DNA from: Halobacteriales archaeon QS_4_66_20
GTDB taxonomy: Archaea > Halobacteriota > Halobacteria > Halobacteriales > Haloarculaceae
Assembly: GCA_003021015.1 (NCBI GenBank)
Contig: PXRK01000035.1
Coordinates: forward strand, 1-62,151
Direction of reading: 5' to 3'
DNA length: 62,151 nucleotides
Part shown: one piece after another, positions 231 through 61,162 of the stretch
Layout: each line of letters opens with the position of its first letter
Position numbering within the stretch: position 1 is the first letter of the stretch
Notes under the pieces: generated by a model
Database searches by the model: none
The model's input: the letters and a program-made list of their open reading frames with translations, nothing else
What the model was told of the DNA's origin: nothing
Program-made: the position numbers and the translations under genes

Positions 231-341
231 ATACAGCCAGACGTGACTCCGTCCAGTGCCAGGATAGTCCATCGGCTGTGTCATGCCCCGAACAACGCAA
301 TCTGGGACGGCACGGTGTGAGTGAATCACGTCTGGCTGTAT
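231..341. repeat. 111-bp inverted-repeat element, family D
   Basis: A perfect 16-bp terminal inverted repeat is visible: atacagccagacgtga at 231-246 and its reverse complement at 326-341. The core has no coding potential. Size and terminal architecture (ATAC...GTGA) match the A, B and C elements elsewhere in the window, although core and middle of the repeat differ. The right end ggctgtatat forms an outward TATA-like sequence facing the ABC permease at 490. A lone right end with the same TIR occurs at 2399-2414. Confidence 0.8.
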
Positions 342-489
342 ATCATTGATACGATCGTCCTCCACATGGGGTTTTATCTGGAAACAAGAGAGATACAGAC
401 AGTAATGTCCGAGGAGGTACACGGCTGGATCGAGGCTCACGAGGACGCTCGGAACCTTCGGAACGAGGAACCGCTACCGGATCGCCGCC

Positions 490-1497
490 GTGCTTGGGGG
501 CGTCGTGGCCGTAATCCTCGTCGCGGAGTGGCTAGGGATCGACACCCGTCGGATCGTGACGGTCGGGTATGCCGACCGGACGCTCCGCGCAGCAGCCCCG
601 ATCACGCTGGCCGCCATCGGCGGACTGTACGCCGAAAAAAGCGGCGTGTTCAACATCGGATTGGAAGGGTTCATGATCTTCGGGGCGGTCAACGCCGTCG
701 CGATCGCGTATCTCGTCTCGGGCGGCGGTACCGTTACACAGATCCATCTGTGGATCGGCTTGATCAGTGCCACGCTTGTCAGTGTCTGTTTGACGATCCT
801 GTTTTCAGTTCTGGTGATCAGATACAAGGCCGATCAGATCGTCGCTGGGCTGGCTGTGTGGTTTCTCGGGCTGGGATTTGGGCCGTTCACTGCAGTGCTG
901 ATCTGGGACAGTCAGTCGAGCGACACGGTCGGCCGCATCGACCGTATCGGCGTGCCCGTTCTGTCCGATTTGCCCGTCGTTGGTCGCCTCATCTTCAACA
1001 ATTCGCCACTCGTTTTGATGACTATCGGGGTAGTCGGCCTCTCGTGGTACGTCCTGTACTACACCAGGTGGGGATACTGGATCCAGGCTGCAGGCGAGAA
1101 CCCCACTGCCCTGGACACGGCAGGCGTAGACGTCAACCGGGTCAGATACGCGACAGTGATCTTCTCCGGGGCAATGGCCGGGCTGGCGGGGGCCGTGCTC
1201 TCCATCGGGCTCACAACGAGTTTCGTCGGGAGTGGGCTGACGATGGTCGACGGTCGCGGCTGGATCGCTATTGTTGCCTACCTGTTTGGGAACTACAACC
1301 CGCTCGGGGCGTTCGGTGCAGCACTACTGTTCGGCGGTGCGGACATGTTCCAGGTGCAGCTCCAGACCGTCGGCATAGAGGTGTCGTCGACACTCACCGG
1401 CCTGCTCCCCTACTTCCTCGTCATCTTCGTGTTAGCGTTCTACGGCAAAACGAGAATGCCGTCGAAGGTCGGCGAACCGTACGATACCGAGTCGTGA
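490..1497 (+). CDS. ABC transporter permease, nucleoside/BMP type (NupQ/YufQ-like)
   Basis: Integral membrane permease of the BmpA-type (basic membrane protein) ABC importers, which take up nucleosides. About eight hydrophobic segments are visible. The family motif GGLYAEKSGVFNIGLEGFMIFGA lies near residue 50 and an EAA-like loop (WIQAAGENPTALDTAG) near residue 200. The length (about 335 residues) suits the second permease of the family. The start is doubtful. The reading frame is open back to 406 and encodes GTRNRYRIAAVLGGVV, but the only in-frame start is a GTG at 490, while a good ATG at 405 is in another frame. A frameshift near the N-terminus is possible. The ATPase, binding protein and partner permease are not in the window, and IS debris plus a repeat element lie directly upstream. 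Confidence 0.85.
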   Translation: MLGGVVAVILVAEWLGIDTRRIVTVGYADRTLRAAAPITLAAIGGLYAEKSGVFNIGLEGFMIFGAVNAVAIAYLVSGGGTVTQIHLWIGLISATLVSVCLTILFSVLVIRYKADQIVAGLAVWFLGLGFGPFTAVLIWDSQSSDTVGRIDRIGVPVLSDLPVVGRLIFNNSPLVLMTIGVVGLSWYVLYYTRWGYWIQAAGENPTALDTAGVDVNRVRYATVIFSGAMAGLAGAVLSIGLTTSFVGSGLTMVDGRGWIAIVAYLFGNYNPLGAFGAALLFGGADMFQVQLQTVGIEVSSTLTGLLPYFLVIFVLAFYGKTRMPSKVGEPYDTES

Positions 1498-1504
1498 TAC
1501 TGGA

Positions 1505-1831
1505 TCAAAGATATGCAATCACGTCTTCGACGACACTCTCAACAAACTCGTCGGTAACTCGTCCTTGCCATGCGACGAGGTCTTCGATACGAGGGGAATG
1601 AACGGCCCACGGTGAGACAAACGATTCTTCCGGGACACCCCCAACGTCCCAGAGATCGGAATCGAGTGCAATCGAATCCGCATACTGCTTGGTCGTGATG
1701 GCGACTGCGATGTACTGTTCGTCTCCAAACGGATGTGAGTCGTTGTTGACGATGAGCCACGGCCGTTGACTGTTCGCACCGAGTTTGAACGGGTCCGAAC
1801 TTCGAACCACGTCACCTCGCCGAGGTTGCAT
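1505..1831 (-). CDS. PemK/MazF-type toxin
   Basis: This 108-residue protein has the PemK/MazF fold signature: RRGDVV at residues 3-8, then RPWLIVNND around residues 23-31, and a C-terminal helix (VTDEFVESVVEDVIAYL). Family members are sequence-specific endoribonucleases that cut mRNA when freed from their antitoxin. The ATG at 1831 directly abuts the TAG stop (1832-1834) of the winged-helix gene upstream, so the two are co-transcribed and probably coupled. The stop lies 8 bp past the convergent permease gene. The toxin role is a family inference. Confidence 0.8.
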   Translation of the reverse strand: MQPRRGDVVRSSDPFKLGANSQRPWLIVNNDSHPFGDEQYIAVAITTKQYADSIALDSDLWDVGGVPEESFVSPWAVHSPRIEDLVAWQGRVTDEFVESVVEDVIAYL

Positions 1832-2206
1832 CTACTCGTCCCCTGTCGTCTCGCGTTCACTCGGATGCTGTTCGTTTGGAGCCATAGCGTCCCACTGCTC
1901 GGGATCGATCCCGCTGTCTTCTTCGTCGAGTCGCTCCGTAATCGCATGAAGATCGTACGCGTCGGACACCCGCTCTAGGTCGTGCGTGAGTGCCCAGTAC
2001 TCACCCTTGTGTCTGACTAGATTCCGTTGTTTCAGCCGCGTGAGTGCAGTCCCGACTGTGTTGGGTTCTTCGTCGATTCCGGTCGCAATCTCAGACCGGG
2101 TAAACGCTTTATCCCGGTTCGTATACAGGTATGTGAGTACCTGTTCGGGGACACTGGGGCCCTGTGGGAGGTCGCCACTTTCGAACTCTTCGATTCGAAC
2201 GGGCAT
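1832..2206 (-). CDS. winged-helix protein, probable antitoxin/regulator of the MazF-like toxin
   Basis: A 124-residue acidic protein with a MarR-like winged helix over residues about 15-75 (PEQVLTYLYTNRDKAFTRSEIA, then NTVGTALTRLKQRNLVRHKGEYWAL) and a disordered acidic tail. The ATG at 2206 (MPVRIEEFESG) was chosen over an upstream GTG because a TATA-like acattaatta lies about 27 nt before it (2229-2238 on the plus strand), which fits leaderless transcription. It immediately precedes the PemK/MazF-like gene. The context suggests that it represses its own operon and neutralises the toxin. It differs from classical AbrB/MazE or RHH antitoxins, so the antitoxin role is inferred from position. 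Confidence 0.7.
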   Translation of the reverse strand: MPVRIEEFESGDLPQGPSVPEQVLTYLYTNRDKAFTRSEIATGIDEEPNTVGTALTRLKQRNLVRHKGEYWALTHDLERVSDAYDLHAITERLDEEDSGIDPEQWDAMAPNEQHPSERETTGDE

Positions 2207-2226
2207 ACCGTGTACTATTCGTGCTG

Positions 2227-2243
2227 ACGTAATTAATGTACTG
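2227..2243 (-). promoter_or_regulatory. TATA-like promoter of the wHTH/MazF pair
   Basis: On the minus strand the AT-rich acattaattacg lies about 25-30 nt before the ATG at 2206, the spacing expected for a leaderless haloarchaeal transcript. No other AT-rich box lies nearby. Confidence 0.5.
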
Positions 2244-2368
2244 TCGTACTCGCTGCAATTCGGAAGCGGAAGCGTCCGTGGACTCGCCGTCCGGTGGCAT
2301 ATCGAAGTCTGCTCTCCGCCGCAGACGATGTCGAATATCTCCATTGTCTGCCAGAAATCTCTCACCTC

Positions 2369-2414
2369 CAGTGCTGAAAATAATCACGCACGACCGTATC
2401 ACGTCTGGCTGTAA
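2369..2414. repeat. nested right ends of A- and D-type inverted-repeat elements
   Basis: The sequence runs ctgaaaataatcacg into tcacgcacgaccgta, then directly into tcacgtctggctgta. The first 15-mer is the right terminus of the A element at 13188-13299. The second is the right terminus of the D element at 231-341. No matching left ends were found upstream, so this is a degraded remnant. It sits about 50 bp before the gene at 2464. Confidence 0.65.
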
Positions 2415-2463
2415 GGCCGTGGCCGTCGCAAACCACATAATCCCGGCCACCGAGCCACCACAC

Positions 2464-2931
2464 ATGGACCTCTCCGGAGACGAACTGGCGGGCGTCGTCG
2501 AGCTGTTCGGGGGGCTCACGCGCGGGGAACTCGGCGACGGACTCGCCGAACTCGCGTTCAAGCGCGGCGAGGAGTACGAGCCCGACGCGTTCGCGGACGA
2601 CATCGAGTCGGCGGTCGAGGAGTACTACCTCGTGCCGCTGGATCCCGGCGACGTCGACGGGGTGGACGCGCCGGTGCTGGTCGCCGGCCCGTCCGCGTTC
2701 CCGGAACTCCCGGAGGGTGCTGAGGACCTGCTGCACATTCTCGACGCCGAGGAGCGAGCGATCGACCGCGAGACCGCCGGCGAGCGCGCGGCCGAGCGGT
2801 TCCGCGTCGACGCTGCGCAGGCGCTCGACGACGGCGCTGAGGACCGGATCGCGACCCTGGTCGACATCAGCTACGAACTCGAAGCCTGGGGCGGCGTCGA
2901 CCTCGCCGACGTCAGGGAGCGGATCGACTGA
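2464..2931 (+). CDS. conserved haloarchaeal hypothetical protein (DUF7109-like)
   Basis: A 155-residue, very acidic, all-alpha protein beginning MDLSGDELAGVVELFGGLTR. I recognise this opening from a conserved haloarchaeal family of unknown function (probably DUF7109). It has no membrane segment, signal or metal motif. The ATG at 2464 was chosen because the family begins there, and an AT-rich cataat sits 23-28 nt upstream. Upstream in-frame codons run through the repeat element and look non-coding. It is monocistronic; the next gene, a Nudix hydrolase, starts 124 bp downstream. No function can be assigned. Confidence 0.75.
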   Translation: MDLSGDELAGVVELFGGLTRGELGDGLAELAFKRGEEYEPDAFADDIESAVEEYYLVPLDPGDVDGVDAPVLVAGPSAFPELPEGAEDLLHILDAEERAIDRETAGERAAERFRVDAAQALDDGAEDRIATLVDISYELEAWGGVDLADVRERID

Positions 2932-3055
2932 TACTGTCGGACGTAACTCTGTGTCACATCGTGACACTCTCCTGGCTGTATTCGCACGGTTGAACGGCTG
3001 AACGTGACGCGTGACTCCAGCAAGAAGTTAAGAGAGTTCGCGCCAACAGTAGGGC

Positions 3056-3655
3056 ATGGATCTGGCGGCGGTGCGCGGGCACGAGGCCGAGACGGTACCC
3101 GACGAACTCCAGGAATCTGCTGTCATCGTGCCGGTGATCGAGCCGGACGACGAGCCGCGGCTGCTGTTCACCAAGCGCGCCGAACACCTCTCGAACCACC
3201 CGGGACAGATGAGCTTTCCCGGCGGGCGCCGGGAGCGGGAGGACGTCGACCTCGAAGCGACGGCGAACCGCGAGGCCCGCGAGGAGATCGAGCTACAGGC
3301 CGACGAGATCGGCTTCGTCGGCCGCCTCGACGACATCCGGACCGTCACGGAGTTCTCCGTCCGGCCGTTCGTCGCGACGATCCCCGATCGGGCGTACGAG
3401 CCCGGCGACGACGAAGTCGCGGAGGTCGCGCCGCTGTCGGTCGCCGCCCTCACCGATCTCGACAACTACGACAGCGAGCGCCGCGACCATCCCTACTACG
3501 GTGACATCCGCCTGCACTACTTCCGCGTGGGCGGCTACGTCGTCTGGGGCGCGACCGCCCGCATCCTCGTCCAGTTTCTCGACCTGGCGACCGACTGGGA
3601 GATGCCGCCCGAACCCGACCGCGAGGTCGAACCCGACGCCGATTTTCCGGTCTGA
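3056..3655 (+). CDS. Nudix hydrolase, CoA pyrophosphatase-like
   Basis: A 199-residue Nudix protein. The Nudix box spans residues 56-80 (GG..., then REAREEIEL). Just before it, LLFTKRAEHLSNHPGQMSFPGG (residues 36-57) is the signature that marks coenzyme A pyrophosphatases (NUDT7/CoAse group). These enzymes cleave CoA or acyl-CoA to phosphopantetheine and 3',5'-ADP, using Mg2+ or Mn2+ bound by the glutamates of the box. A TATA-like aagttaagag lies 23-32 nt before the ATG. Substrate choice within the family is inferred. Confidence 0.9.
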   Translation: MDLAAVRGHEAETVPDELQESAVIVPVIEPDDEPRLLFTKRAEHLSNHPGQMSFPGGRREREDVDLEATANREAREEIELQADEIGFVGRLDDIRTVTEFSVRPFVATIPDRAYEPGDDEVAEVAPLSVAALTDLDNYDSERRDHPYYGDIRLHYFRVGGYVVWGATARILVQFLDLATDWEMPPEPDREVEPDADFPV

Positions 3656-3677
3656 TCGGTCGGGCTCGGAGACGCGA

Positions 3678-4802
3678 TCAGGAACTCGGTTCGTCGTAGC
3701 TCACGTCGTAGTCGGCACTGCTGACGTAGGCCGCGACGCGGACGCCGATCAGGCTGACGATGATGACCGCGAGAATGTAGACGGCGAGGAGCGTCCCGGG
3801 GACGACGACGAACGCCTCGATTTCGAGCGGGCCGAGGTCCATCTGCGGGACCTCCAGCGGCCCGGTGGCGCCGGAGCGCTGCAGGAAGTAGGCGGCGAAG
3901 CCGCGGACGGCTAGCCCCACCGCGACGGCGACAAAGGGAAGGTTGATGTACGTGGTACCGATCTCGTCGTCGCGGATGAACTCGTCGAGCAGGCGGCCGG
4001 CGCTGGCGATCAGCGCCGCGCCGGTCAGCCACGGGATGGCGTCGTGGACGAACTGCGTGGCGATCATCAGTTCGGCCTCGTTGCTCATCGCGGAGGCGCC
4101 GAGCAGGCCGACGAACCCGCCGACCAGCGCCAGGCCCGCTCCGACGACGTATGTGACCAGCGACACCTGCCCGGAGTACAGCGCTTCCCGGACGTCCCCC
4201 GAGAGGCCGGCGAGAACGACGTCGATGCTCCATCCCTTGTACAGCAGGAAGACGCCGACCACTGCGGCGATGGCGCCGACCGAGACCGTGATGCTGTCGA
4301 ACACTGCCAGCAGCGCCGGGAACGCCAGCAAGGCGAGGCCGATCGGCACCAGCACCGTCTTCCGGAGCTCCTCGTCGGCGAGAAACTGCTTGAGCAGGTA
4401 GTACGTCGACTCGATGTCACGGGCCTGCCGGACCACCACGCGGTCGACGGCGTCGACCGGGATCCGGCTCTCGATGATCGGCACGAGCTGCTCGTCCTCA
4501 GCGCTGTCGACGACGACGACCGCGGAGTCCGGATCGTGGTCCGCGACGAGCTGGTCGACCTGTGCCGCGATCTCGCGGTCGCTGCTCACCGACTCACCGG
4601 CGCCGGTCAGCACCGACACGACCGTCTCGTCGTCGAGGTCGCGGGCGACCCGCAGCCCCTCCAGCAGACAGTTTACGCGGCTGTCTTCCGGGTCCTCGAC
4701 GCCGACGCTCGTCACCAGCGCCTCGATCGCCGCCTCCCCGACGATGGGCGGGTCGGCGTCGAGGGGCTGTCCCCGATAGAGACAGACGACCAGCGTACTC
4801 AC
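3678..4802 (-). CDS. DUF373 family membrane protein
   Basis: A 374-residue protein with an N-terminal soluble domain (residues 1-150, MSTLVVCLYRGQPLDADPP) typical of the archaeal DUF373 family. About six or seven transmembrane helices follow, starting near residue 152 (VLVPIGLALLAFPALLAVF). The acidic cytosolic domain contains a repeated Rossmann-like pattern (SAVVVVDSAEDEQLVPII). DUF373 is widespread in archaea, with no established role. The gene converges on the Nudix gene, leaving 22 bp between stops. Confidence 0.85.
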   Translation of the reverse strand: MSTLVVCLYRGQPLDADPPIVGEAAIEALVTSVGVEDPEDSRVNCLLEGLRVARDLDDETVVSVLTGAGESVSSDREIAAQVDQLVADHDPDSAVVVVDSAEDEQLVPIIESRIPVDAVDRVVVRQARDIESTYYLLKQFLADEELRKTVLVPIGLALLAFPALLAVFDSITVSVGAIAAVVGVFLLYKGWSIDVVLAGLSGDVREALYSGQVSLVTYVVGAGLALVGGFVGLLGASAMSNEAELMIATQFVHDAIPWLTGAALIASAGRLLDEFIRDDEIGTTYINLPFVAVAVGLAVRGFAAYFLQRSGATGPLEVPQMDLGPLEIEAFVVVPGTLLAVYILAVIIVSLIGVRVAAYVSSADYDVSYDEPSS

Positions 4803-4897
4803 AGACGGGGGAAGACGGGGGCGAAATAAAAATCCCGCTACTGTTTATACGATCCAGCAACTCGGCGGCGGGCAGATTCCCCGGCCGGGAACGCCGC

Positions 4898-5755
4898 TCA
4901 CTCCGCCGGATCGACGACGCCCTGGTCAGTGACGATGCTGTCGAGCAGGTGCGTGGGCGTCGCGTCGTACGCTGGGTTCTCCACGATGAACCCCTCTGCG
5001 GGTTCGAGCATCACCTCGCTGGCGGTGCGGTAGTCGTTCTCGAACGCGAAGCCGCCGTCGGCCAGTTTCGTGGCCGACCCGATGGCCGTCATCGGGACGC
5101 CGACGTCGGCGGCGGCCGCCGCGAGCGGGTAGGTGCCGACGCGGTTGTGCAGCGTGTCCTCGACGACGCAGTCGATGCCGACGACGACGCGGTCGCACTC
5201 GGGTAGGTAGTGACCGCAGGCGCCGTCGACGATCAGGTGCGTCTCGACGGCTTCGAACTCCGCGAGGCGGCGGGCCATCTTCCGGCCCAGGAAGCGCGGG
5301 CGGGCCTCGGTCACGTAGACGGTGAACGCCGCGCCGTCTTCGATGGCGCGGGTGATCGCCGACAGCACCGTCGTCGAGTAGTCGTGGGTGAGCAGCACGT
5401 CCGCCTCGGCCAGCATCGACGCGGCGTTCTCGGCGGCGCGGCGCTTGCCCGACTCGACCCGCTCGATGACGCGCTCGATGGCGTTGCGGGTCAGTTCCTG
5501 GGCCTCGGCAACGCTGTCGGGGTCGGCCTCGGTGACGGTCTCGACGATCTCGCGCTGGGTGTTGTGCAGCGAGGCGTGGGAGGGGTCTGCTCGCCGGAGC
5601 GCGTTGCTGTTGCGCTCCAGCGCCTGGAGGTATTCGCTGACTGCGGGGAACTCCCGGTCGGTCAGCTCCCGGAGCGCGCTGGCGGCCTTGACCGCGATCA
5701 CCGACGCGCTGTGGGTCTGCATGTCGGCGATCTCCGCCGCTGTTTCGTCGATCAT
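4898..5755 (-). CDS. IF-2B alpha/beta/delta family protein (ribose-1,5-bisphosphate isomerase-like)
   Basis: A 285-residue member of the eIF-2B alpha/beta/delta superfamily, which includes archaeal ribose-1,5-bisphosphate isomerase and methylthioribose-1-phosphate isomerase. Visible family features are TRNAIERVIERV, LLTHDYSTTVLSAI and EARPRFLGRKMARRL, then the nucleotide-pocket motif VVVGIDCVVEDTLHNRVGTYPLA. The ATG at 5755 (MIDETAAEIADMQTHSAS) matches the usual start better than an upstream GTG. Haloarchaea carry several paralogues, and without comparison the substrate (R15P or another phosphosugar) is uncertain. A true translation-factor role is unlikely in archaea. Confidence 0.75.
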   Translation of the reverse strand: MIDETAAEIADMQTHSASVIAVKAASALRELTDREFPAVSEYLQALERNSNALRRADPSHASLHNTQREIVETVTEADPDSVAEAQELTRNAIERVIERVESGKRRAAENAASMLAEADVLLTHDYSTTVLSAITRAIEDGAAFTVYVTEARPRFLGRKMARRLAEFEAVETHLIVDGACGHYLPECDRVVVGIDCVVEDTLHNRVGTYPLAAAAADVGVPMTAIGSATKLADGGFAFENDYRTASEVMLEPAEGFIVENPAYDATPTHLLDSIVTDQGVVDPAE

Positions 5756-5830
5756 ACCGGGGCTATCTCCCCCCACGACCAAGAGTGTTGCCGGACGGCC
5801 CCGCGAGGGCGCCCTGCGGCGACCGCCAGA

Positions 5831-5956
5831 GACGGCTCCGGCCCGGCTGTTCCCGCAGCCACCGGGGCGGCTCCGGTTCGGCTGCTACCCCAGCCATCGG
5901 GGCGGCTCCGGTTCGGCTGCTGCCCCAGCCATCAGGGGGGTTCCGGCTCGGCCGCT
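5831..5956. repeat. 35-bp direct repeats (three full units plus a decayed unit)
   Basis: The unit, roughly cagccatcggggcggctccggttcggctgctg, recurs exactly 35 bp apart at 5852-5886, 5887-5921 and 5922-5956, with a weaker partial unit from 5831. The third unit overlaps the 3' end and stop codon of the EamA transporter (stop at 5932-5934). The array therefore appears to have grown out of the coding tail, repeating codons for an AAEPEPP-like peptide. There are no spacers, so it is not a CRISPR array. Confidence 0.8.
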
Positions 5957-6876: not shown

Positions 6877-6932
6877 GGACGAACGCAGGCGGTCGCGGGG
6901 CTTACGGGTTGCGAAACGCCGCCCCGAACCCT

Positions 6933-7817: not shown

Positions 7818-7837
7818 GACTGATATTCGCTGAAGGA

Positions 7838-7849
7838 CTATAATAAGTA
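7838..7849 (-). promoter_or_regulatory. TATA box of the surface-protein gene
   Basis: On the minus strand tacttattatag lies 21-32 nt before the ATG at 7817, consistent with a leaderless transcript. The stretch 7850-8012 between this box and the small gene at 8013 shows no gene. Confidence 0.55.
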
Positions 7850-8012
7850 TTGTGTAGGCTACAAGAACTGCTGTACCTGCCACACCTTTATATACCTATA
7901 ACTAACCCACATCTCTACAGTTCTGGTTTGTATACAGCAGATAGTCGTTCCTGGGAACAAGACACTGATGATTGCTTGAAACTACTATCAGTCGATGGCG
8001 CCCCAGGGAAGT

Positions 8013-12249: not shown

Positions 12250-12326
12250 ATACTGGTGGCTGTACGTACATGAAAACTCAAATTGAGAATCCAGACGGAA
12301 CGGGTCTGTCTCCGCAGATACACTGC
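12250..12326. repeat. truncated C-family inverted-repeat element
   Basis: It starts with atactggtggctgta (12250-12264) and continues with the C core (attgagaatcca, then gaacgggtctgtctccgcag). It matches the complete C copies at 41961 and 54263 for about 70 bp. The right end is missing; the sequence instead passes into ctgccggacgtgatt, which looks like a decayed B left end. Confidence 0.75.
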
Positions 12327-12368
12327 CGGACGTGATTCCGTTCCCACCCGGATAGCGCTCAGCATCTG

Positions 12369-12479
12369 ATACTGATTGTTGTGACTCGTTACCGCCGGGT
12401 ATTCGTCAGACGCCAGTTTCGAGCCGTGAAATCGCCGCTATTGCGATGTGGTGATGAAAATAATCACAACAATCAGTAT
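12369..12479. repeat. 111-bp inverted-repeat element, family A
   Basis: The 16-bp termini atactgattgttgtga (12369-12384) and tcacaacaatcagtat (12464-12479) are perfect reverse complements. The core starts ctcgttaccgcc and ends tgatgaaaataa, features shared with A copies at 13188, 28259 and 61054. It has no coding content. Confidence 0.85.
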
Positions 12480-12500: not shown

Positions 12501-12620
12501 ATGAGCGACGATCCCCTCGGGGGCATCGAATCGGCCGAAACCGACCCGCCGAAACTCGGTCGTCACCCGCGTGTCGTTCGGTGGCTCATGACCGTCGGTA
12601 TTCTGCCTGCCCGGCGGTAA
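12501..12620 (+). CDS. possible 39-residue protein between repeat ends
   Basis: The ATG at 12501 opens MSDDPLGGIESAETDPPKLG and ends VGILPARR. Its TAA lies inside an inverted A-type end (12613-12640). The acidic, proline-containing start looks haloarchaeal, and cagtatgag at the A-element end gives little promoter. It may be a truncated gene whose 3' part was replaced by the repeat. It is listed as tentative because of its size. Confidence 0.3.
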   Translation: MSDDPLGGIESAETDPPKLGRHPRVVRWLMTVGILPARR

Positions 12621-12640
12621 CGAGTCACAACAACCACTAT
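12613..12640. repeat. inverted solo A-family end
   Basis: ggcggtaacgagtcacaaca followed by accactat is the reverse complement of an A left end plus the start of the A core (gtgactcgttaccgcc). The corresponding other end was not found. Confidence 0.65.
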
Positions 12641-13187: not shown

Positions 13188-13299
13188 ATACGGTCGTGCG
13201 TGACTTTGTACCGCTATGGGATCGCGTGTTGTGCGTTTCAGCCCGTGAAACCAACGGATATTGGGCCCCAGTGCTGAAAGTGATCACGCACGACCGTAT
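13188..13299. repeat. 112-bp inverted-repeat element, family A with a different terminus
   Basis: The termini atacggtcgtgcgtga (13188-13203) and tcacgcacgaccgtat (13284-13299) are perfect reverse complements. The core (ttgtaccgct, then gcgtgttgtgcgtttcagcccg) is the A core of the copy at 28259. The outer 12 bases differ from the other A copies on both sides in a matching way, so the ends co-vary. The right end runs directly into a B element. Confidence 0.85.
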
Positions 13300-13407
13300 G
13301 ACCCGGACGTGATTTGCCTCAGTTATCTCGACACAACTCGGGAGTCTCAGGGTCGATACTCGTCGATATCGTGTCCTGACGCCTCACAGAATCACGTCCG
13401 GGTGTAT
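13298..13407. repeat. 110-bp inverted-repeat element, family B
   Basis: The left end (at)gacccggacgtga is fused to the preceding A element; the right end tcacgtccgggtgtat is at 13392-13407. The core (gtcgatactcgtcgatatcg, then tgtcctgacgcct) matches the B copies at 28383 and, inverted, 26586. The right end reads gggtgtatata and lies about 45 nt before the next gene's ATG. Confidence 0.85.
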
Positions 13408-26585: not shown

Positions 26586-26696
26586 ATACACCCGGACGTG
26601 ACTCTGTTAGATGTCAGGACACGATATCTACGAGTATCGACTCTGAAAGTCCCGATCTGTGTCGAGATATCTTAGACAAATCACGTCCGGGTGTAT
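26586..26696. repeat. 111-bp inverted-repeat element, family B (inverted)
   Basis: The 16-bp ends atacacccggacgtga (26586-26601) and tcacgtccgggtgtat (26681-26696) are perfect reverse complements. The core is the reverse complement of the B cores at 13298 and 28383 (tgtcaggacacgatatc, then gagtatcgac...gaaagt). It sits exactly between the start region of the FAD oxidoreductase and the small membrane-protein/atpD genes. Confidence 0.9.
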
Positions 26697-28159: not shown

Positions 28160-28185
28160 ACACCAGGGTGGCGGCCGGCCGGCTT

Positions 28186-28201
28186 ATAGTGATTGCTGTG
28201 A
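28186..28201. repeat. solo A-family left end
   Basis: atagtgattgctgtga differs by one base from the left end of the A element that starts at 28259 (atagtgattgttgtga). The core that normally follows is absent, so this is a relic. It lies about 27 bp upstream of the NYN gene start on the opposite strand. Confidence 0.6.
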
Positions 28202-28258
28202 TTGTTTTCGGAGTCACATCGTATTTCCGGGAATGTCACGGGCTGACACCGGCGTCTG

Positions 28259-28384
28259 ATAGTGATTGTTGTGACTATTTACCGCTATAGAGTCGCGTGT
28301 TACGCGTTTCAGCCCGCGCAACCTCCGATTTTGGGATCCGATTCTGAAAATAGTCACGCACGACCGTATCACAACAATCAGTAT
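28259..28384. repeat. A-family element with two nested right ends
   Basis: The left end atagtgattgttgtga (28259-28274) pairs with tcacaacaatcagtat (28369-28384). Immediately inside it lies tcacgcacgaccgtat (28354-28369), the right end type of the copy at 13188. The element is therefore 126 bp, an A core plus one extra 15-base right end. The core matches the 13188 copy (accgctatagagtcgcgtgt, then gcgtttcagcccg). Confidence 0.85.
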
Positions 28385-28493
28385 ACACCTGGACGTGATT
28401 TGCCAAAGTCATCCCGACACAGCTCGGGGCTTTCAGGGTCGATACTCGTGGATATCGTGTCCTGACGCCTAACAGAGTTACGTCTGGGTGTAT
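28383..28493. repeat. 111-bp inverted-repeat element, family B
   Basis: The left end atacacctggacgtga (28383-28398) overlaps the A element's terminal AT. The right end ttacgtctgggtgtat (28478-28493) matches with two mismatches. The core is the B core (cgacacagctcgg, then tcagggtcgatactcgtgga). It forms an A-B tandem like the one at 13188-13407. Confidence 0.85.
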
Positions 28494-41960: not shown

Positions 41961-42070
41961 GTACTGGTGGCTATACGTACGTGAACACTCGAATTGAGAA
42001 TCCAGGCGGAACGGGTCTGTCTCCGCAGAGAGCAGAGACTGGTGAGTAAAAGAACTACAGCTACCAGTAT
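41961..42070. repeat. 110-bp inverted-repeat element, family C
   Basis: The left end gtactggtggctata (41961-41975) and right end tacagctaccagtat (42056-42070) pair with few mismatches. The core (cgtacgtgaacactcgaatt, then cggaacgggtctgtctccgc) is almost identical to the copy at 54263 and to the fragment at 12250. It has no coding content. Confidence 0.85.
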
Positions 42071-53664: not shown

Positions 53665-53666
53665 TG

Positions 53667-54143: not shown

Positions 54144-54151
54144 AGTAGCTG

Positions 54152-56509
54152 TTAGTCGTGCTGTCTACAGCGACCGGTCTGGCAGTTGGTCCCCTGTACC
54201 CCGTCGTCCCTCGTACTGTCGTCCACTCGCCCCGCCCCACAAGTTCGTTCCGGTTTGTTGTCATACTGGTGGCTGTACGTACGTGAACACTCGAATTGAG
54301 ACTCCAGGCGGAACGGGTCTGTCTCCGCAGAGAGCAGCGACTGGCGAGTAAAAGAATTACAGCCACCAGTATCAGCACTCCCGTTGCAGCCGGGGAGAAT
54401 CGACGGCCGGCCCTGCCCCCACAGCGACCAGCCCGCCGACCCGACGAGCAACAGCAGCGCCTCGCCGCCCTCGGTCCCACCCGAGGAGATCTGCTCGACG
54501 GCCGTCCACGCGACCAGCGCCACCGTCGCCAGCGCGACGGCGTACTTGACGCCGGAGATGATCTGGACGTTGCGGATGTAGCCGGCGATGAACGACGAGA
54601 TGAGCGCCTGCAGCGTCACCGCGTGGAAGAACAGCATCGACAGCAGGTCCGGATCGATCGCCTGGGAGAACTCCTCGGTCTCCTGGGCGGCCTGGCCGCT
54701 GGTTTCGGCGAGCCCCGCCATCGTGTCCAGAAACTGGATCTTCAGCAGCGCCATCACGGCCAAAAGCGTCAGGTACGTCATGATGATGATCACCATCTGC
54801 ATCCGGGTCCGCGTCTTCCGCTCGCGGTCGATGTCGTCCTGGTTCTCCGAGGATTTGGCGGCCGTCGAGAGCACGTCCTGGATCTGACTCGACGCCTCTT
54901 GGGCCTCGCTGATCAGCCTGACCGTCCGGGCCAGCCGCGGGATGTGGTACGTGTTGTTGAACTCCCGCAGGGCGTCTTTCAGGCTCGTCCCATAGTTAAC
55001 CTTCGAGTGCATCGTCTCGAACTCCTCCGCGAGCTTGCCCGAGGACGTCTCCGAGACGATCTTCAGCGACTCCAAAAGCGTCATCCCGGTGTCGTTCGCG
55101 CTCGCGAGCTTCCGGAGGTTCTCCGAGAGCCCGCCGAGGATGGCGCGCCGCGACTGTACGTTCCACTCGTAGAAGATCGACAGCGGGAGGAGGTTGAGAT
55201 ACAGCGGCACGTACACCCAGATGAACGTTCCCCAGACGGGCTGGGCTTTCATTGCATCCCACGACAGCGGCGCGCTCTCGGCCACGACGGTCCCGACGAG
55301 CACGAGCAGCGTCAGCGGGACCGTCACGACGAACACCATCTTCGGGTGGTTGCGGAAAAACAGGTGTGGCGCCTTGAGGATCTGCATCAGCTCGTAGGTG
55401 CCCTCCTGTCGCTTGATGTGATCGAACACCTTTTTGTCGCCGGTGTACTCCTCGACGAGCCCGGGGTTGAACACCGCGATGCCTTCCTCGACGGCGAAGT
55501 CCTCGCCCGCGTCCGGGCGCAGGTAACCGTCACCGATCTCGTCCTGGGTTACCGTGGAGGTGAGCACCAGAAAACCCATACCGATCAGCGGGATCAGGCC
55601 GTAAACGGTGCCGTACAGAAGCGTCGTCTGGTCGCCGCTGCCCATCATGCTCATGATCACCAGGATGATGATCAAAAGCAGCGGGAACAGCGACAGCGTC
55701 ATGTACATCTCGCCGAACAGCTCCATCGTGTCCAGCAGCTTCTTCTGTTCCTGTTTGGCAGTCCGCATCTGCTTGTCCTTCTGATCCTCGAGGAAGTCGG
55801 TGAGGTTCCCCCCCGAGTTCAGGATCGACAGCATGTCCGTCAGGAACTGTGAGAGCTCGTCGCTGGGTGACTCCAGCGCCTGGTTGCGGACCGCCGTCCG
55901 GTAGTCGGTGTCGAAGTACTCGGTTTCGAGGACGATCGACTGAAACTCCTTTGACACCTCGCCGTACGTGTCGTCGGCTTTGGCCATCGCCCGCAGGATT
56001 TCGAGCTGGTTCATCCCGCCGACTGCCAGAGCGTACATGAACGCCACCGAATCTGCCAGGAGGACGTTGATCTCGCGCTTGCGCCCGTTCGCTCTGAAAT
56101 ACGGAATCGAGACGATCGAGCCAAAGCCGATCGCGAACCCGAACGAGCCCAGCAACAGCCCCGAAACGATGATGATCAGCGGCTCGCGGATCGCCCTGGC
56201 GATCGGGCTGATCGACTCCGGCAGCGGCACGATTGGCGACCACCCGATGAACTGCAGGAACAGGTACCCGGCGATCGATCCCAGCAGCCAGAGCCCCAGG
56301 CCGGCGATCAGCCCAACCGCGAGCGACCGCGAGAGGAACATCTCGACGTTGTCGGCCATCCGCGCCTGAGCCAGCTTCTTCTCGACGTTCTTGACGAACT
56401 CGCTGTCCTCGTCGAACAGCCACTGGTACAGCGGGTAGAACTTCCCGCCGAGCGAGTCCTCGCCGCCGAGCTGCTGTTGTTGTTGTGGATCCCTGGTGTC
56501 GAGGCTCAT
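54152..56509 (-). CDS. pilC: type IV pilus membrane platform protein (PilC/TadC-like) with an altered C-terminus
   Basis: A 785-residue polytopic membrane protein with two T2SF/TadC-like halves. Visible features are SVAFMYALAVGGMNQLEILRAMAKADDTYGEVSKEF and ASANDTGMTLLESLKIVSETSSGKLAEEFETMHSKVNYGTSLKDAL, each followed by helices. It anchors the secretion ATPase and organises pilin insertion. The last 65 or so residues, from about GCNGSADTGGCNSFTRQSLL, are encoded by the C-family repeat at 54263-54372 and sequence beyond it. The native tail has therefore been replaced without closing the frame. ATGA overlap with the ATPase gene. Confidence 0.88.
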   Translation of the reverse strand: MSLDTRDPQQQQQLGGEDSLGGKFYPLYQWLFDEDSEFVKNVEKKLAQARMADNVEMFLSRSLAVGLIAGLGLWLLGSIAGYLFLQFIGWSPIVPLPESISPIARAIREPLIIIVSGLLLGSFGFAIGFGSIVSIPYFRANGRKREINVLLADSVAFMYALAVGGMNQLEILRAMAKADDTYGEVSKEFQSIVLETEYFDTDYRTAVRNQALESPSDELSQFLTDMLSILNSGGNLTDFLEDQKDKQMRTAKQEQKKLLDTMELFGEMYMTLSLFPLLLIIILVIMSMMGSGDQTTLLYGTVYGLIPLIGMGFLVLTSTVTQDEIGDGYLRPDAGEDFAVEEGIAVFNPGLVEEYTGDKKVFDHIKRQEGTYELMQILKAPHLFFRNHPKMVFVVTVPLTLLVLVGTVVAESAPLSWDAMKAQPVWGTFIWVYVPLYLNLLPLSIFYEWNVQSRRAILGGLSENLRKLASANDTGMTLLESLKIVSETSSGKLAEEFETMHSKVNYGTSLKDALREFNNTYHIPRLARTVRLISEAQEASSQIQDVLSTAAKSSENQDDIDRERKTRTRMQMVIIIMTYLTLLAVMALLKIQFLDTMAGLAETSGQAAQETEEFSQAIDPDLLSMLFFHAVTLQALISSFIAGYIRNVQIISGVKYAVALATVALVAWTAVEQISSGGTEGGEALLLLVGSAGWSLWGQGRPSILPGCNGSADTGGCNSFTRQSLLSAETDPFRLESQFECSRTYSHQYDNKPERTCGAGRVDDSTRDDGVQGTNCQTGRCRQHD
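54263..54372. repeat. 110-bp inverted-repeat element, family C, inside pilC
   Basis: The ends atactggtggctgta (54263-54277) and tacagccaccagtat (54358-54372) are perfect 15-bp inverted repeats. The core is nearly identical to the copy at 41961. It lies within the 3' end of the pilC reading frame and is translated into a Cys/Ser/Thr-rich tail. Only about 110 bp separate it from the stop codon. Confidence 0.9.
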
Positions 56510-58989
56510 TCCTCTTCAGCCTCCGTCCCGGCCTTCGGAACGAACTGGCCGAAGTCGATCGTCTCCTCGTCGGTGTCCAGCTCCTGTGACTCCTCGGCGT
56601 CGTCCAGTGCCGAGACGAGATTCGCCGTGTCCATCTTCCGGTACTTCTCCAGCAGCGGCTCCGCCTGCGAGAGGATCTCCTCGGTTTCCTCGAGCAGCCA
56701 CTCCGGCGGATCCGGCCGCGGCACGAGCTTCTCCTTCTCGGCGTCGACCTCGATCTGGACCGACTCCATCTCCCGGAGGTCCTCCAGCGACGTCGCGAGG
56801 TGATCCTGGGCGATGATCGCCAGGATCGTGTCCGGATCGTTGATGAACGCCTGGACCGATGCCGCGACCTCCGTGTACGTGTTGAGGCCGTTCTTGATGA
56901 GGTACGCGAGCACGATCTTGCGCTTGAACAGCTCCTCGTCGAGGCGCTCCTGTTTCCAACCGCGGTCGAACTTGATCTCCTCGAGCGTGCTCGAAGAGCC
57001 CATCTGGATGTAGTCGTCCGTCTCGGCGCGCCACTCGTAGACGTCCCTGACGTTGATCTCGTCGTTTTCGGGCGAGTACTCGTTGATCTCGGTGAGGTTC
57101 TTGTTGCGGCGCACCTTCCGACCGTCGACCCGGGTCTGGGTCTGGATCGACACCAGATCCAGCGCCGTGAACAGCGTCTTCGAGACGTTGATCGGCTCGG
57201 TCGTGAACCGCTTGATCACCTCGCCGACGGAGTCGGCGTGGAACGTCGAGTAGGTGGTGTGCCCCGTCGACATCACCTGGAACAGGTCGCGACCCTCCTC
57301 CCCACGGACCTCGCCCATCACGATGTAGTCGGGCCGCTGGCGCAGTGCCGCCTCCAGCAGGTCGAACTCGTCGACGTCGCCGGTGTCGTCCTCGCCGAAC
57401 GACGGGCGGGTAACCGACGCGACCCAGTTGCGCTGGGGCAGCTCGACCTCGCGGGTGTCCTCGATGGAGACGATCTTCGCGTTCGAGGGGATGAACAGCG
57501 AAACGGCGTTCAGACTCGTCGTCTTCCCTGACGCCGTCCCGCCAGCGAAGATCAGCGCCTTCTCGTTTTCGATGCAGAGCCAGAGGAACGCCATCTCGTC
57601 GAGGTTGAACGTGTTCCAGTTCACCAGGTCGACGGGCGTGAACGGCACGTCCTTGAACTGCCGGATCGTGTAGTTGGTTCCGTGGTCGGACACCTCGGCG
57701 CCGAGCGTGAGCTGTGCGCGCGAGCCGTCCGGCAGCGTCGCGTCGACCTGTGGCTGCCGCTTCGAGATACCTTTCCCTGACCGCTGGGCGAGCTTCACGA
57801 CGAAATCGTCGAGTTCCTCGTGGCCGTGCTCGATGTTGGTGATGATCTGCTCGTAGTCGGTGTGGTAGACGAACACCCGGCTGTTGTACCCGTCACAGGA
57901 GATGTCCTCGACGTTGATGTCGTGTTTGATCGGGTCGATTCGCGCGTAGCCGATGAAGTTGCGCTTGAGGACGTACAGCAGCTTCTCGACCTGGTACTCG
58001 TTGAGCGTCCCCGAGTCCTCCTCGATGACCGCCGGCTCGGGCCGGGTCTCGATCCCGTCGAGCTGGGGTCGGCCCCCGCCTTCGCCCGACGCCGACTCGC
58101 CGCCGCTGAACAGCCCCTTTACCGAGCCCAGCAGGCCGCCGCCCGACTCCGCCGTGCTGGTGCCGGGCGTCTGCCCGCTGTAGAGGTCGTACCGCGAGAG
58201 CAGGCGCTCGGCCTCCCGCTGGATCACGTCCGCCCTGTCGGACTCGCTGCCCTGGACGATCACGTCGTCCTCGGAGTACTTGATCGCCGCCTTGAGCTTC
58301 TTCGAGAGGAACTCCTTGAGATCCTCCTCGATCTCGGTGAGGTACGGTTCGATGACGTAGTACTTCACCTCGTTTTCTTTCTGGGATTTGAAAAGAATGA
58401 TGCAGGAGTACGGTTTGTTCACCCAGTAGCGGTTCTGCTCGACGAAGTGGGTCTTTTTCTCCATCGGCACCGCCTTCTCGAGGTGGTACCGGTTGACGAC
58501 GGTCGTGTTCCCGTTGCGCGTGCTGAAAAACTCGTCCTCGTCGACCTCCTCGCTGACGTCGACGGTGCGTTTGTCGACGAGCTCCGCCAGCTGTGAGGCC
58601 TGCGACTCGGCCTCGTGCAACCGTGACTCTGTCTCGTCCGGAGCGAACCCCAGGTGCTCGCGTTTGTTCAACGAGCCCCGCCCGGCTTCCTCCTGCCGGA
58701 ACTGCTCCCACGTATAGATGTCCTTCCGTGCGCCCGCTTCTTCGGGGTCGACGTAGCTGTCTACGAGCTCGTCGACCCGCTTTGCGTTGCTCGCTGCCGT
58801 CCTGAACCGTGCCGGTGCGTCCCGCGGGTCGAACCCGAGATACTCGCTCCTGTCGAACCGGCCGCTGTCGTGTTCTTCTCGCTGGAAATCACTCCAGGAG
58901 TACTCGCCAACCCTGACCGACTCATCGAAGCCGACTACGGCCCCCGAGTCCGACTCGTCCTCGGCCCCCCCTGTATCATCAATTGCCAT
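56506..58989 (-). CDS. pilB: type IV pilus secretion ATPase (PilB/VirB11-like)
   Basis: An 827-residue type II/IV secretion ATPase. The N-terminal domain (1-330) contains a twice-repeated motif (EYSWSDFQREEHDSGRFDRSEYLGFDP and IYTWEQFRQEEAGRGSLNKREHLGFAP) followed by a linker. The catalytic part has Walker A GGTASGKTTSLNA, the Asp box SIEDTREVELPQRNW, Walker B DYIVMGEVRGEE, and the His box STGHTTYSTFHADS. It powers pilus assembly from the cytoplasmic face. It is first in the operon, with its stop overlapping pilC by 4 nt. Confidence 0.93.
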   Translation of the reverse strand: MAIDDTGGAEDESDSGAVVGFDESVRVGEYSWSDFQREEHDSGRFDRSEYLGFDPRDAPARFRTAASNAKRVDELVDSYVDPEEAGARKDIYTWEQFRQEEAGRGSLNKREHLGFAPDETESRLHEAESQASQLAELVDKRTVDVSEEVDEDEFFSTRNGNTTVVNRYHLEKAVPMEKKTHFVEQNRYWVNKPYSCIILFKSQKENEVKYYVIEPYLTEIEEDLKEFLSKKLKAAIKYSEDDVIVQGSESDRADVIQREAERLLSRYDLYSGQTPGTSTAESGGGLLGSVKGLFSGGESASGEGGGRPQLDGIETRPEPAVIEEDSGTLNEYQVEKLLYVLKRNFIGYARIDPIKHDINVEDISCDGYNSRVFVYHTDYEQIITNIEHGHEELDDFVVKLAQRSGKGISKRQPQVDATLPDGSRAQLTLGAEVSDHGTNYTIRQFKDVPFTPVDLVNWNTFNLDEMAFLWLCIENEKALIFAGGTASGKTTSLNAVSLFIPSNAKIVSIEDTREVELPQRNWVASVTRPSFGEDDTGDVDEFDLLEAALRQRPDYIVMGEVRGEEGRDLFQVMSTGHTTYSTFHADSVGEVIKRFTTEPINVSKTLFTALDLVSIQTQTRVDGRKVRRNKNLTEINEYSPENDEINVRDVYEWRAETDDYIQMGSSSTLEEIKFDRGWKQERLDEELFKRKIVLAYLIKNGLNTYTEVAASVQAFINDPDTILAIIAQDHLATSLEDLREMESVQIEVDAEKEKLVPRPDPPEWLLEETEEILSQAEPLLEKYRKMDTANLVSALDDAEESQELDTDEETIDFGQFVPKAGTEAEEE

Positions 58990-59195
58990 TACTGTTGTTC
59001 TACTGGTAAGGGATGAAAAAGCTTTGCGCTAGATCTGGTAACGAAAGGTTACCAGACATCCATTCCGGAAAGCTGTCCATACCAGGGCCGAAAAAGGAGC
59101 AGGTTGCACTGATTCACTGGAAGATCCACCGATAGTCGGTGGGTTTGTGGGCGTGGCGGGCCAGACGGCCCTGCTGTCAGCCGAGTAAGAACTGA
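58990..59195. promoter_or_regulatory. pilus-operon promoter region with palindrome and hairpin
   Basis: ctggtaac-gaaag-gttaccag (59035-59055) is a perfect 8-bp inverted repeat, 46-66 nt before the pilB ATG; it is a likely operator or regulator site. The AT-rich agctttttcatcc on the minus strand lies between it and the gene. Further away, ccaccga-tag-tcggtgg (59126-59142) forms a 7-bp hairpin, possibly the terminator of the aminotransferase gene. No gene is present. Confidence 0.55.
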
Positions 59196-60335
59196 TTAAG
59201 CGAGGAACCGCTCGACACGGTCGAGCGCCTCGGTCAGGTCGTCGATGCCCGTCGCGTAGGAGACCCGGAGGTGACCCTCGCCCGCGTCGCCGAACGCGGT
59301 ACCGGGAACGACGGCGACGCCGGTCTCCTCCAGCAGCGCCTCGGCGAACTCGCCAGCGTCGTCCCAGGGACAGGAGGGGAACGCGTAGAACGCGCCGCTG
59401 GCCCGGAAGCAGTCCAGCCCCATCTCCTCGAACCGCGAGAGCACGAGGTTGCGCCGGCGGTCGTACTGGTCGCGCATCTCCGCGACGGCGCCGTCACAGG
59501 AGGAAAGCGCCTCCAGCCCCGCGTGCTGGGCGGTGGTCGGCGCCGAGAGCATCATGTACTGGTGAATGCGGTTCATCGCCGTGATCGCCTCCGGCGGCGC
59601 CAGGGCGTACCCGAGGCGGAGCCCGGTCATGGCGTAGGCCTTCGAAAACCCGTTGAAGACGACCGTGCGCTCGCGCATGCCCGGGAGCGTGGCGATGGAG
59701 GTGTGCTCGTGCTCGTAGGACAGCGCCGCGTAGATCTCGTCCGACAGCACCGTCAGATCGTGCTCGCGGGCGAACGCGGCGACCTCCTGCAGTTCGTCGC
59801 CGGTCATCGTCGCCCCGGTCGGGTTGTTGGGGTAGCAGAACACGAGGACGTCGGCATCCCCGGCTCCGGCCTCGGCGAGCCGCTCGGAGGTGAGTTTGAA
59901 CGCCTCCTCCTCGCGCGTCGGCACCGGCAGCACCTCGCCGCCGGCGAACAGGACGCCCGGGACGTAGGAGACGTACGACGGCTGGACGACCGCGACCGTG
60001 TCGCCGGGGTCGACAAGCGCCCGGAACGCGAGGTCGATCCCCTCGCTGGCGCCGGCGGTCACGAGCAGTTCGGTCTCGGGGTCGTACTCGAGGTCGTAGC
60101 GGTCGGCCATCCGCTCGGCGATGGCCGCCCGGAGGTCGCTGCGCCCCCGGTTCATCGTGTAGGAGGTCCGGCCCCGCTCCAGCGACGTGATGGCAGCGTC
60201 CCTGGCGGCCCACGGCGCGGCGAAATCTGGTTCGCCGACGCCCAGCGAGATGACGTCGTCCATCTCCGCGGCGAGTTCGAAAAACCGGCGGATGCCCGAC
60301 GGCGGCACCGCGTCGACGCGGTCTGCGGGCTTCAT
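59196..60335 (-). CDS. class I/II PLP-dependent aminotransferase
   Basis: A 379-residue aspartate-aminotransferase-family enzyme. ISLGVGEPDFAAP is near residue 30, SYTMNRGRSDLRAAIAERM near 58, CYPNNPTGATMTGDEL near 168, and LSDEIYAALSYEHEHTS near 196. The PLP lysine is in FNGFSKAYAMTGLRLGYA, and RVSYATG near the C-terminus holds the carboxylate-binding Arg. It probably transaminates aspartate, aromatic or branched-chain amino acids. Its ATG overlaps the stop of the Lrp-type gene (ATGA), so the regulator and enzyme form one operon. Confidence 0.92.
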   Translation of the reverse strand: MKPADRVDAVPPSGIRRFFELAAEMDDVISLGVGEPDFAAPWAARDAAITSLERGRTSYTMNRGRSDLRAAIAERMADRYDLEYDPETELLVTAGASEGIDLAFRALVDPGDTVAVVQPSYVSYVPGVLFAGGEVLPVPTREEEAFKLTSERLAEAGAGDADVLVFCYPNNPTGATMTGDELQEVAAFAREHDLTVLSDEIYAALSYEHEHTSIATLPGMRERTVVFNGFSKAYAMTGLRLGYALAPPEAITAMNRIHQYMMLSAPTTAQHAGLEALSSCDGAVAEMRDQYDRRRNLVLSRFEEMGLDCFRASGAFYAFPSCPWDDAGEFAEALLEETGVAVVPGTAFGDAGEGHLRVSYATGIDDLTEALDRVERFLA

Positions 60336-60820
60336 GGCGAGACGGAGAGCCGGTCGTCCTCGTCGCCGTCGCCCATTTCGATCCCCTGCTCCTTGTAGGA
60401 GTCCATGACGTAGTGGGTGACCGTCTGGGTGATCTCCGGCACCGGAGCGACCTTGTCGCTGATGAACGCCGAGACCTCCTGCATCGACTCGTCCTCGACT
60501 TCCATCATGAAGTCGAAGTCGCCGCTGACGAGGTACAGCGACTTGACCTGCGGGAAGCGGGCGATGCGCTCTGCGATGTCGTCGTACCCGGTTTCGCGGT
60601 CGAGCGTGACGTTCAGTTCCACCGTCGCCCGGACGGGCTGGCTCTCGAGCTGGTCGCGGTCGATCACGGCCTGGTACCCGCGGACGACCCCCGCTGCTTC
60701 GAGCTCGTCGATGATCGCCTCGACCGTCTCCGGGTCGCTGTCAGTCTGGCGGGCGATGTCCTCGCTGCTCGCCCGGGCGTTCTCGCGGAGAACCCCGAGC
60801 ACCGCGTCGCGGCTACTCAT
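60332..60820 (-). CDS. Lrp/AsnC family transcriptional regulator
   Basis: A 162-residue regulator with an N-terminal winged HTH (MSSRDAVLGVLRENARASSEDIARQTDSDPETVEAIIDELEAAGVVRGYQA) and a C-terminal RAM/AsnC ligand domain (VRATVELNVTLDRETGYDDIAERIA, VKSLYLVSGDFDFMMEVE). It likely senses an amino acid and controls the aminotransferase just downstream. ATG 60820 was preferred to 60847 because it begins the HTH domain in the usual way. Confidence 0.9.
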   Translation of the reverse strand: MSSRDAVLGVLRENARASSEDIARQTDSDPETVEAIIDELEAAGVVRGYQAVIDRDQLESQPVRATVELNVTLDRETGYDDIAERIARFPQVKSLYLVSGDFDFMMEVEDESMQEVSAFISDKVAPVPEITQTVTHYVMDSYKEQGIEMGDGDEDDRLSVSP

Positions 60821-60868
60821 GCCTGTAGACGGTCGGAGCGCGGACAAAAGGCTTGCTACTAGCTACGG

Positions 60869-60986
60869 GGTCGCGTTAAGTTAGAGGATGAGGCGTTCGA
60901 TTTCAGCCATGTCGACGCTCAGACAGCTCAATCGTGGCTCAAAGCGTTCGCCGTCTACCACAATTCACGCCAAAATTAACGCGACC
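60869..60986 (+). mobile_element. 118-bp miniature element derived from an IS (transposase tail between inverted ends)
   Basis: The ends ggtcgcgttaa (60869-60879) and ttaacgcgacc (60976-60986) are perfect 11-bp inverted repeats. Between them the frame reads LEDEAFDFSHVDAQTAQSWLKAFAVYHNSRQN-stop, the C-terminus of a DDE transposase, probably IS6-like. Most of the IS is deleted, leaving both ends, so this could be mobilised in trans. A decayed sister copy lies at 126-207. Confidence 0.7.
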
Positions 60987-61053
60987 TTCCAGCTGCTCAT
61001 CTACAAGAGATTATCGACATGGTTGTTGGATGCTCAATAGGGAGTTACCTTTT

Positions 61054-61162
61054 ATAGTGATTGTTGTGACTCTTTACCGCCAGGGAGACAATTCGTGGGC
61101 TCCAGTCCGCGAACCAATCGTTCACGCGACGTGGTGCCGAAAATAATCGCAACAATCACTAT
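61054..61162. repeat. 109-bp inverted-repeat element, family A
   Basis: The left end atagtgattgttgtga (61054-61069) and right end tcgcaacaatcactat (61147-61162) pair with one mismatch. The core begins ctctttaccgccag and ends ccgaaaataa, like the other A copies, but its centre is diverged. Confidence 0.85.

Follow-up and report, generated by a model that had tools for sequence, protein, structure and literature searches.

The 62,151-nucleotide stretch of contig PXRK01000035.1 analysed here (the window) belongs to a Halovenus metagenome-assembled genome (MAG) of 2.89 Mb, in 86 contigs and 89% complete, and contains dispersed repeats of about 111 bp bounded by 16-bp terminal inverted repeats (TIRs). 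These elements are real and mobile: they duplicate their target on insertion, insert into one another, keep near-fixed lengths while their two ends change in concert, and are spread across the class Halobacteria. The element class is not new, having been known in outline since 2011 as SMR-A (PMC3119063). Our comparative analyses indicate that the repeats are most probably SMR-A-type non-autonomous, non-coding DNA transposons of constrained length, mobilized in trans by what is likely a DDE enzyme. As far as the literature searched extends, the target duplication, a second class of 82 bp, the asymmetry and concerted change of the ends, and the breadth of the distribution are new.

Target-site duplication and nested insertion

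The bases immediately outside the TA(C/G)...(C/G)TA termini were compared across a set of 206 elements measuring 80-83 or 108-113 bp. The triplet TSA (TCA or TGA) stood on both flanks of 155 copies and was matched in 147 of them (TCA/TCA in 74, TGA/TGA in 73, mixed in 8). Overall, 149 elements had a 3-bp match, 25 matched in TA only and 32 had neither, while re-paired flanks gave a mean of 66.7 and a maximum of 85 matches of 3 bp. Matched and mixed flanks numbered 68 and 1 in the source genome, 78 and 7 in other Halovenus genomes, and 1 and 0 in other genera. The neighbourhood of insertion reads C-TSA-G (C in 60%, G in 56%). In families F1 and F3, with ends like AGCCAGAC or ACCCGGAC, TA was found on both flanks in 22 of 25 copies by manual reading of the list.

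The triplet comes from the target and is not inherited with the element, since TCA and TGA are random along the element tree: 32 changes were counted on the tree of 93 cores of the superfamily F0, versus a mean of 31.0 for shuffled labels, and near-identical F0 cores had the same triplet in 31 of 71 pairs. Nested composites lead to the same duplication. When removal of the inner core with one 3-bp copy was compared with removal of a 2-bp duplication or of none, the 3-bp removal gave the best fit to the outer family in five of the six composites tested. The empty sites fitted without gaps in L063 (110/110) and L069 (111/111) and with one or two gaps in L009, L024 and L122; the sixth composite, L225, had no relative for comparison. 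These results show that the elements duplicate the target triplet TSA on insertion. Insertion into palindromic flanks, an idea attached to SMR-A, was rejected because left/right complementarity stood at chance over 14 positions (mean 4.34 versus 4.42 when re-paired; 188 elements).

Length classes and anatomy of the ends

All 72 matches found in 68 stretches measured 109-112 bp, though 93-123 bp was permitted. A scan over 70-150 bp placed 97 of 114 matches from the source genome at 109-113 bp, 8 at 82 bp and 9 at other sizes, a distribution that is partly biased because the stretches scanned had been chosen for holding a match of 93-127 bp. A freer test started from a single end in each of 30 genomes and sought a partner with the same triplet to about 1.5 kb; 20 were resolved, at 82 bp (14), 109-111 bp (5) and 102 bp (1), and among the ten with no resolved partner L353 and L360 resemble damaged 111- and 83-bp copies. 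F0 cores differing by 24-39 substitutions still average a net length difference of about 0.3 bp. The clustering near 111 bp therefore extends beyond the window, with copies across the class gathering at 109-111 or 82 bp.

Other sizes were also encountered. At G147:C1:522891-522944, two TGATT-type ends lie 54 bp apart, possibly a mini form of about 50 bp. L120:3416-3494 and L151:5874-5953 are elements of 79 and 80 bp with GGACGT-type ends and matched TSA outside them, suggesting that this end type may likewise have a short size class.

In 57 non-redundant elements of 109-112 bp, positions 1-16 pair between the ends, positions 17, 19, 23 and 25 are mostly unpaired (agreement of 2, 12, 7 and 16%, respectively), and past position ~27 pairing in the 110-bp class is at or below chance. 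The subterminal consensus is approximately TCTTTACCG at one end and TATTTTCGG at the opposite end. The two TIRs change in concert: their sequence varies from element to element yet agrees between the ends of each one. At TIR position 4, the 55 type-B copies carried C/C (26) or G/G (27), with only 2 mixed, and on the core tree this label needed 5-7 changes, of which well-supported branches force 3-4. Among 39 F0 copies, 9 of the 16 TIR pairs had changed on both sides and a single cell overall on one side only; this near absence of one-sided changes suggests matching at the DNA level. The 82-bp class (23 copies) has a 10-bp central stem whose 10 pairs have all undergone double changes, with 94.5% of its cells pairing versus 25-58% when the stem was slid, the structure having been derived from the very alignment in which covariation was scored.

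Distribution in Halovenus, Haloquadratum and other Halobacteria

The strict pattern ATAS N8 GTGA ... TCAC N8 STAT matched 152 elements in the source genome (control, 0) and was positive in 8 of 18 Halovenus genomes, with counts of 152, 94, 92, 50, 16, 5, 2 and 1. TGATT-ended copies were present in Halovenus genomes with 0-1 strict matches (34 in G268, 10 in G292 and 1 in G300). Copy numbers thus vary greatly among near relatives, a pattern as expected following bursts.

The strict GTGA pattern, positive in 7 of 292 genomes, gave the impression that the elements were nearly confined to Halovenus, and this was overturned by the TGATT-end pattern, which found elements in 26 of 391 Halobacteria genomes and 13 of 86 genera (control, 0 throughout). 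That pattern preset the right triplet as TSA and left the left flank unconstrained. Of its 30 loci, 26 were clean and represented 23 distinct places, all with matched TSA, whose lengths were 110 bp (13), 111 bp (8), 109 bp (1) and 102 bp (1). Single ends were matched in 54 of the 391 genomes and 25 of the 86 genera; as two genomes gave one control match apiece, some of the single-match genomes may be chance.

A 400-kb sample of Haloquadratum walsbyi C23 yielded a 110-bp family with ATAGTGATTAGT ends. At least 40 copies are present in C23, 40 of the 55 candidates having been scored, and the family has in common with the Halovenus elements its TIR (ATAGTGATTAGT versus ATAGTGATTGTT) and TSA duplication. 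Thirty Haloquadratum loci were inspected (29 in C23, one in another Haloquadratum), of which 28 were delimited (27 in C23, one in the other species). All 28 had matched TSA (15 TCA, 13 TGA), with lengths of 110 bp in 25 and 109 bp in 3; the two undelimited loci gave no framing (L272) or a false 115-bp framing (L279). One C23 copy lies 131 bp from a stretch that a passage of PMC11431627 places near HqIRS55, provided that the numbering of contig C3 equals that of FR746099.1, and the C23 family is probably HqIRS55 itself.

A different repeat of 113 bp with inverted ends, beginning ATACTATAG, occurs on the H. walsbyi plasmid PL100 (L227:30509-30621) and recurs once more in C23 and once in a different Haloquadratum. 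Tried as an SMR-A seed, it was rejected as not high-copy, with only 3 matches in 2 of 170 genomes and constant flanks.

Copies in the window

Each of the ten repeats listed by the initial annotation is present at its annotated position. A count of ATA-anchored end pairs (at least 13/16) returned 11 overlapping rows for the window, against 0, 0 and 0 for three sequences generated at random under a dinucleotide model; with any anchor (at least 15/16) there were 26 overlapping rows versus 0, 2 and 0. The copies are as follows, letters in parentheses being the core families of the initial annotation.

231..341, no strand assigned: SMR-type element of family F1 (19 copies), TIR ATACAGCCAGACGTGA, 111 bp; TIR 16/16; TA on both flanks
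12369..12479, + strand: SMR-type element of superfamily F0 (B), 111 bp; TIR 16/16; target-site duplication TGA/TGA
13188..13299, + strand: SMR-type element of superfamily F0 (C), 112 bp; TIR 16/16; target-site duplication TGA/TGA
13298..13407, - strand: SMR-type element related to F3 (D); left terminus damaged, no intact TIR pair; abuts 13188-13299; 87-88% identical to 28383 and 26586
26586..26696, + strand: SMR-type element of family F3 (D), 111 bp; TIR 16/16; flanks TAA/TAA
28259..28369, + strand: 111-bp SMR-type element, F0 core; TIRs of type B (left) and type C (right); flanks TGA/TCA, unmatched; pattern matches both strands
28369..28384, - strand: remnant right TIR from an older copy of type B (the "extra end"), seen in the sequence
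28383..28493, - strand: SMR-type element of family F3 (D), 111 bp; TIR 13/16
41961..42070, + strand: SMR-type element related to F4, 110 bp; left terminus GTAC; flanks TTA/TGA, unmatched; 94% identical to 54264-54372
54263..54372, + strand: SMR-type element of family F4, 110 bp; TIR 15/16; target-site duplication TCA/TCA
61054..61162, + strand: SMR-type element of superfamily F0 (B), 109 bp; TIR 15/16; flanks TTA/TCA, unmatched

The ends are less uniform than had been supposed. Termini of the form ATAC/ATAG...GTGA, attributed to all copies, are not general, as 13298 begins ATGACCC, 41961 begins GTAC, and the inner TIR end in the family of 41961 and 54263 is GTAC/GTAA. End pairing, described as intact throughout, is so at 16/16 in 231, 12369, 13188 and 26586 and nearly so at 15/16 in 54263, 61054 and 28259-28384, but it has fallen to 13/16 in 28383 and 12/16 in 41961 and is not intact in 13298. 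The division into four unrelated core families is fair for the window, except that B and C fall in one alignable superfamily, F0; in the wider set, 192 unique elements form 18 clusters, 8 of them singletons.

The supposed 126-bp extended copy at 28259-28384 is a nested insertion, consisting of the 111-bp element at 28259-28369 and a 15-bp TIR remnant of an older copy, and the same +15 arrangement was found in three further copies (L047, L048 and L069). The inner TIR end has TGA/TCA, identical to the target triplet, suggesting that older copies serve as targets for newer ones.

Under a crude GC3-based gene calling, 5 of 8 element sites overlap no called open reading frame (ORF), whereas 13188-13407 and 26586-26696 overlap the start of an ORF and 54263-54372 overlaps the end of one. 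Partial likenesses to the element class lie at 2357-2402, 2931-2967, 12251-12359, 12604-12640 and 28179-28212, several of them beside intact copies, as though identical intergenic spots took repeated insertions. In addition, a 35-bp unit (CGGCTCCGG...) is repeated three times head-to-tail at 5833-5937, the repeats being 80-83% alike.

Proposed mechanism of mobilization

According to the mechanism that we propose, an element would run from one TSA through TA(C/G)... and a ~16-bp inverted end, an ~11-bp end-specific subterminal zone, a middle and the mirror image of these parts to the second TSA, the middle being 55-58 bases without above-chance pairing in the 110-bp class or a ~28-base hairpin in the 82-bp class. 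A transposase, most likely of the DDE type, for which the target duplication argues, would act in trans, its own gene not lying between such ends, bind the paired ends, cut the C-TSA-G target with a 3-bp stagger and insert the element; in families F1 and F3 the stagger would probably be the 2-bp TA. Targets of the form TNA or TA are reminiscent of IS5- or IS630-type enzymes. The length may be fixed by what the synaptic complex, or a hairpin form of the DNA, requires.

The initial annotation had suggested mobile or regulatory elements constrained in size or structure, in preference to deletion from different parent transposons. The mobile class is supported by the length clustering, the target duplications, the nested insertions and the failure to find a parent insertion sequence (IS), while the regulatory alternative gained nothing from this analysis; neither a parent IS with these ends nor a scatter of lengths appeared in the data searched.

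Several observations weigh against our interpretation. No transposase with these ends was found in the data searched, so that the case for DDE chemistry comes from the duplication. No 2- or 3-bp flank match is present in 32 of the 206 elements, nor in three of the ten annotated window copies as framed (28259-28384, 41961 and 61054), and the TA flanks of F1 and F3 depend on the manual count and on one nested case judged by eye (L061). When the end motifs were scored strictly, a clear ACC-type end was found together with a clear TTC-type end in just 32 of the 57 elements, and pairing inward of the subterminal zone is only at chance in the 110-bp class. The near-fixed length may partly reflect descent with few insertions or deletions. 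Finally, the 82-bp class has 10 one-sided G-U cells in its TIRs, which weakens the argument for DNA rather than RNA in that class.

On this interpretation as DNA transposons, the mobilization of SMRs, called enigmatic in 2011, becomes testable through the duplication, the defined ends, the asymmetric motif and the two near-exact sizes, and the mover can be sought via its footprint and by assays with a 110-bp substrate. Retention of length despite sequence drift is unusual for a transposon and may inform on the synapsis of very short DNA.

Alternative explanations and search for the transposase

A further-reaching version of the same reading can be offered tentatively. SMRs might form a distinct order of mobile DNA, hairpin-capable elements governed by a molecular ruler (two end modules of 27 bp with a spacer of ~28 or 55-58 bp between them) and mobilized by a dedicated DDE-type transposase that stands alone, outside any IS. 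Such a system, maintained throughout Halobacteria, would be the archaeal double-strand equivalent of REPIN/RAYT.

It is unlikely that the repeats are ordinary miniature inverted-repeat transposable elements (MITEs), that is, products of internal deletion within one or several IS families whose full-length members have the same ends. The TIRs, the target duplication and the lack of coding capacity agree with MITEs generally, and the copy-richest Halovenus genomes are incomplete MAGs, so that ISs could be missing from them: the SMR-rich G000, G298 and G299, all of this kind, have no PF13358 match each and 1, 3 and 1 PF01609 matches, respectively, that of G000 being an open frame of 240 codons that lacks facing ends of the element type. 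However, no Pfam transposase family was found in 42 ORFs (the best one or two each) from 22 long facing-end spans, a set of 18 distinct spans plus 4 from two scans that covers facing pairs to 4 kb and excludes shorter and the remaining one-sided pairs; the L154 span of 1,791 bp encodes PCNA. In C23, 86 listed ends formed 26 pairs at 109/110 bp, and a further six facing pairs, 1.6-4.6 kb apart, each reuse a right end that already belongs to a listed 110-bp copy, the left ends of two of them (77665 and 1773765) belonging to no listed copy. Facing element ends flanked none of 30 PF01609 loci (of 94 matches) in 18 Halovenus genomes, a search confined to that genus and thus outside C23, and none of 23 PF13358 loci in 16 genomes; isolated end-like matches do occur. 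Six ORFs beside unpaired ends included no Pfam transposase, and two of the six had no family. An autonomous IS with these ends was not found, the search having covered two transposase families and Halovenus genomes that are mostly incomplete.

Target duplication is not expected from HUH single-strand transposition, and a flanking triplet that is matched and random on the element tree is not an inherited cleavage site. The latter point strongly disfavours hairpin elements mobilized, as REPINs are, by a single-strand (HUH, Y1/RAYT) transposase encoded elsewhere, which we consider very improbable even though REPINs too have 16-bp inverted ends, hairpin potential and, in the part of PMC3116915 available, doublet spacings that peak at 71 and 110 bp. 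Least probable of all is the spread of a regulatory RNA or of a gene for a structured RNA: ten single copies all fold better than the shuffle mean (z from -2.9 to -6.7) and the 82-bp class has one-sided G-U changes, but F0 conserves the TIR stem only, with core pairing at chance inward of the subterminal zone, and target duplications are signs of DNA transposition. An RNA structure was rejected for F0, and a central hairpin was retained for the 82-bp class.

Comparison with known systems

The available part of PMC3119063 describes SMR-A of H. walsbyi as elements of ~110 bp with prominent inverted ends, in three dissimilar families (HqIRS42, HqIRS43 and HqIRS55), with no target duplication and an enigmatic mobilization. 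SMR-A is also characterized by insertion at near-terminal palindromes in PATEs and IS605-type transposons; the nested insertions analysed here were of SMRs within SMRs. The elements studied here agree with that description in size (97 of the 114 source-genome matches), in their prominent TIRs, in forming many-copy families without mutual similarity (18 clusters; 152 strict matches in the source genome), in reaching tens of copies per genome and in inserting inside other mobile elements. They differ in the 82-bp class, which falls outside the ~110-bp definition, and this class, the concerted ends, the end asymmetry and the multi-genus spread do not appear in that part of PMC3119063. Moreover, SMRs are stated there to lack target duplication, whereas the elements of both C23 and Halovenus have it. 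As the C23 copies themselves show matched TSA, the published statement needs revision, and the reported absence looks like an oversight rather than a real difference. No further account of SMRs was found in the literature searched, and the part of PMC12306157 available contains no word starting with "halo".

The elements are also MITE-like in the fixed size of their duplication (3-bp TSA, or TA flanks in F1 and F3). MITEs moved by IS5- or IS630-type transposases use TNA or TA targets. The present elements resemble these in their TIRs, short TSA or TA duplication and lack of coding capacity, and differ from them in that no partner IS was found and in that lengths are near-fixed despite unalignable cores. 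With REPINs, as far as the available part of PMC3116915 describes them, they have in common the 16-bp inverted ends, a distance between the ends that is conserved and favours two spacings, hairpin potential and the lack of a transposase of their own; in contrast, the target-derived 3-bp duplication of the haloarchaeal elements points away from HUH/RAYT chemistry.

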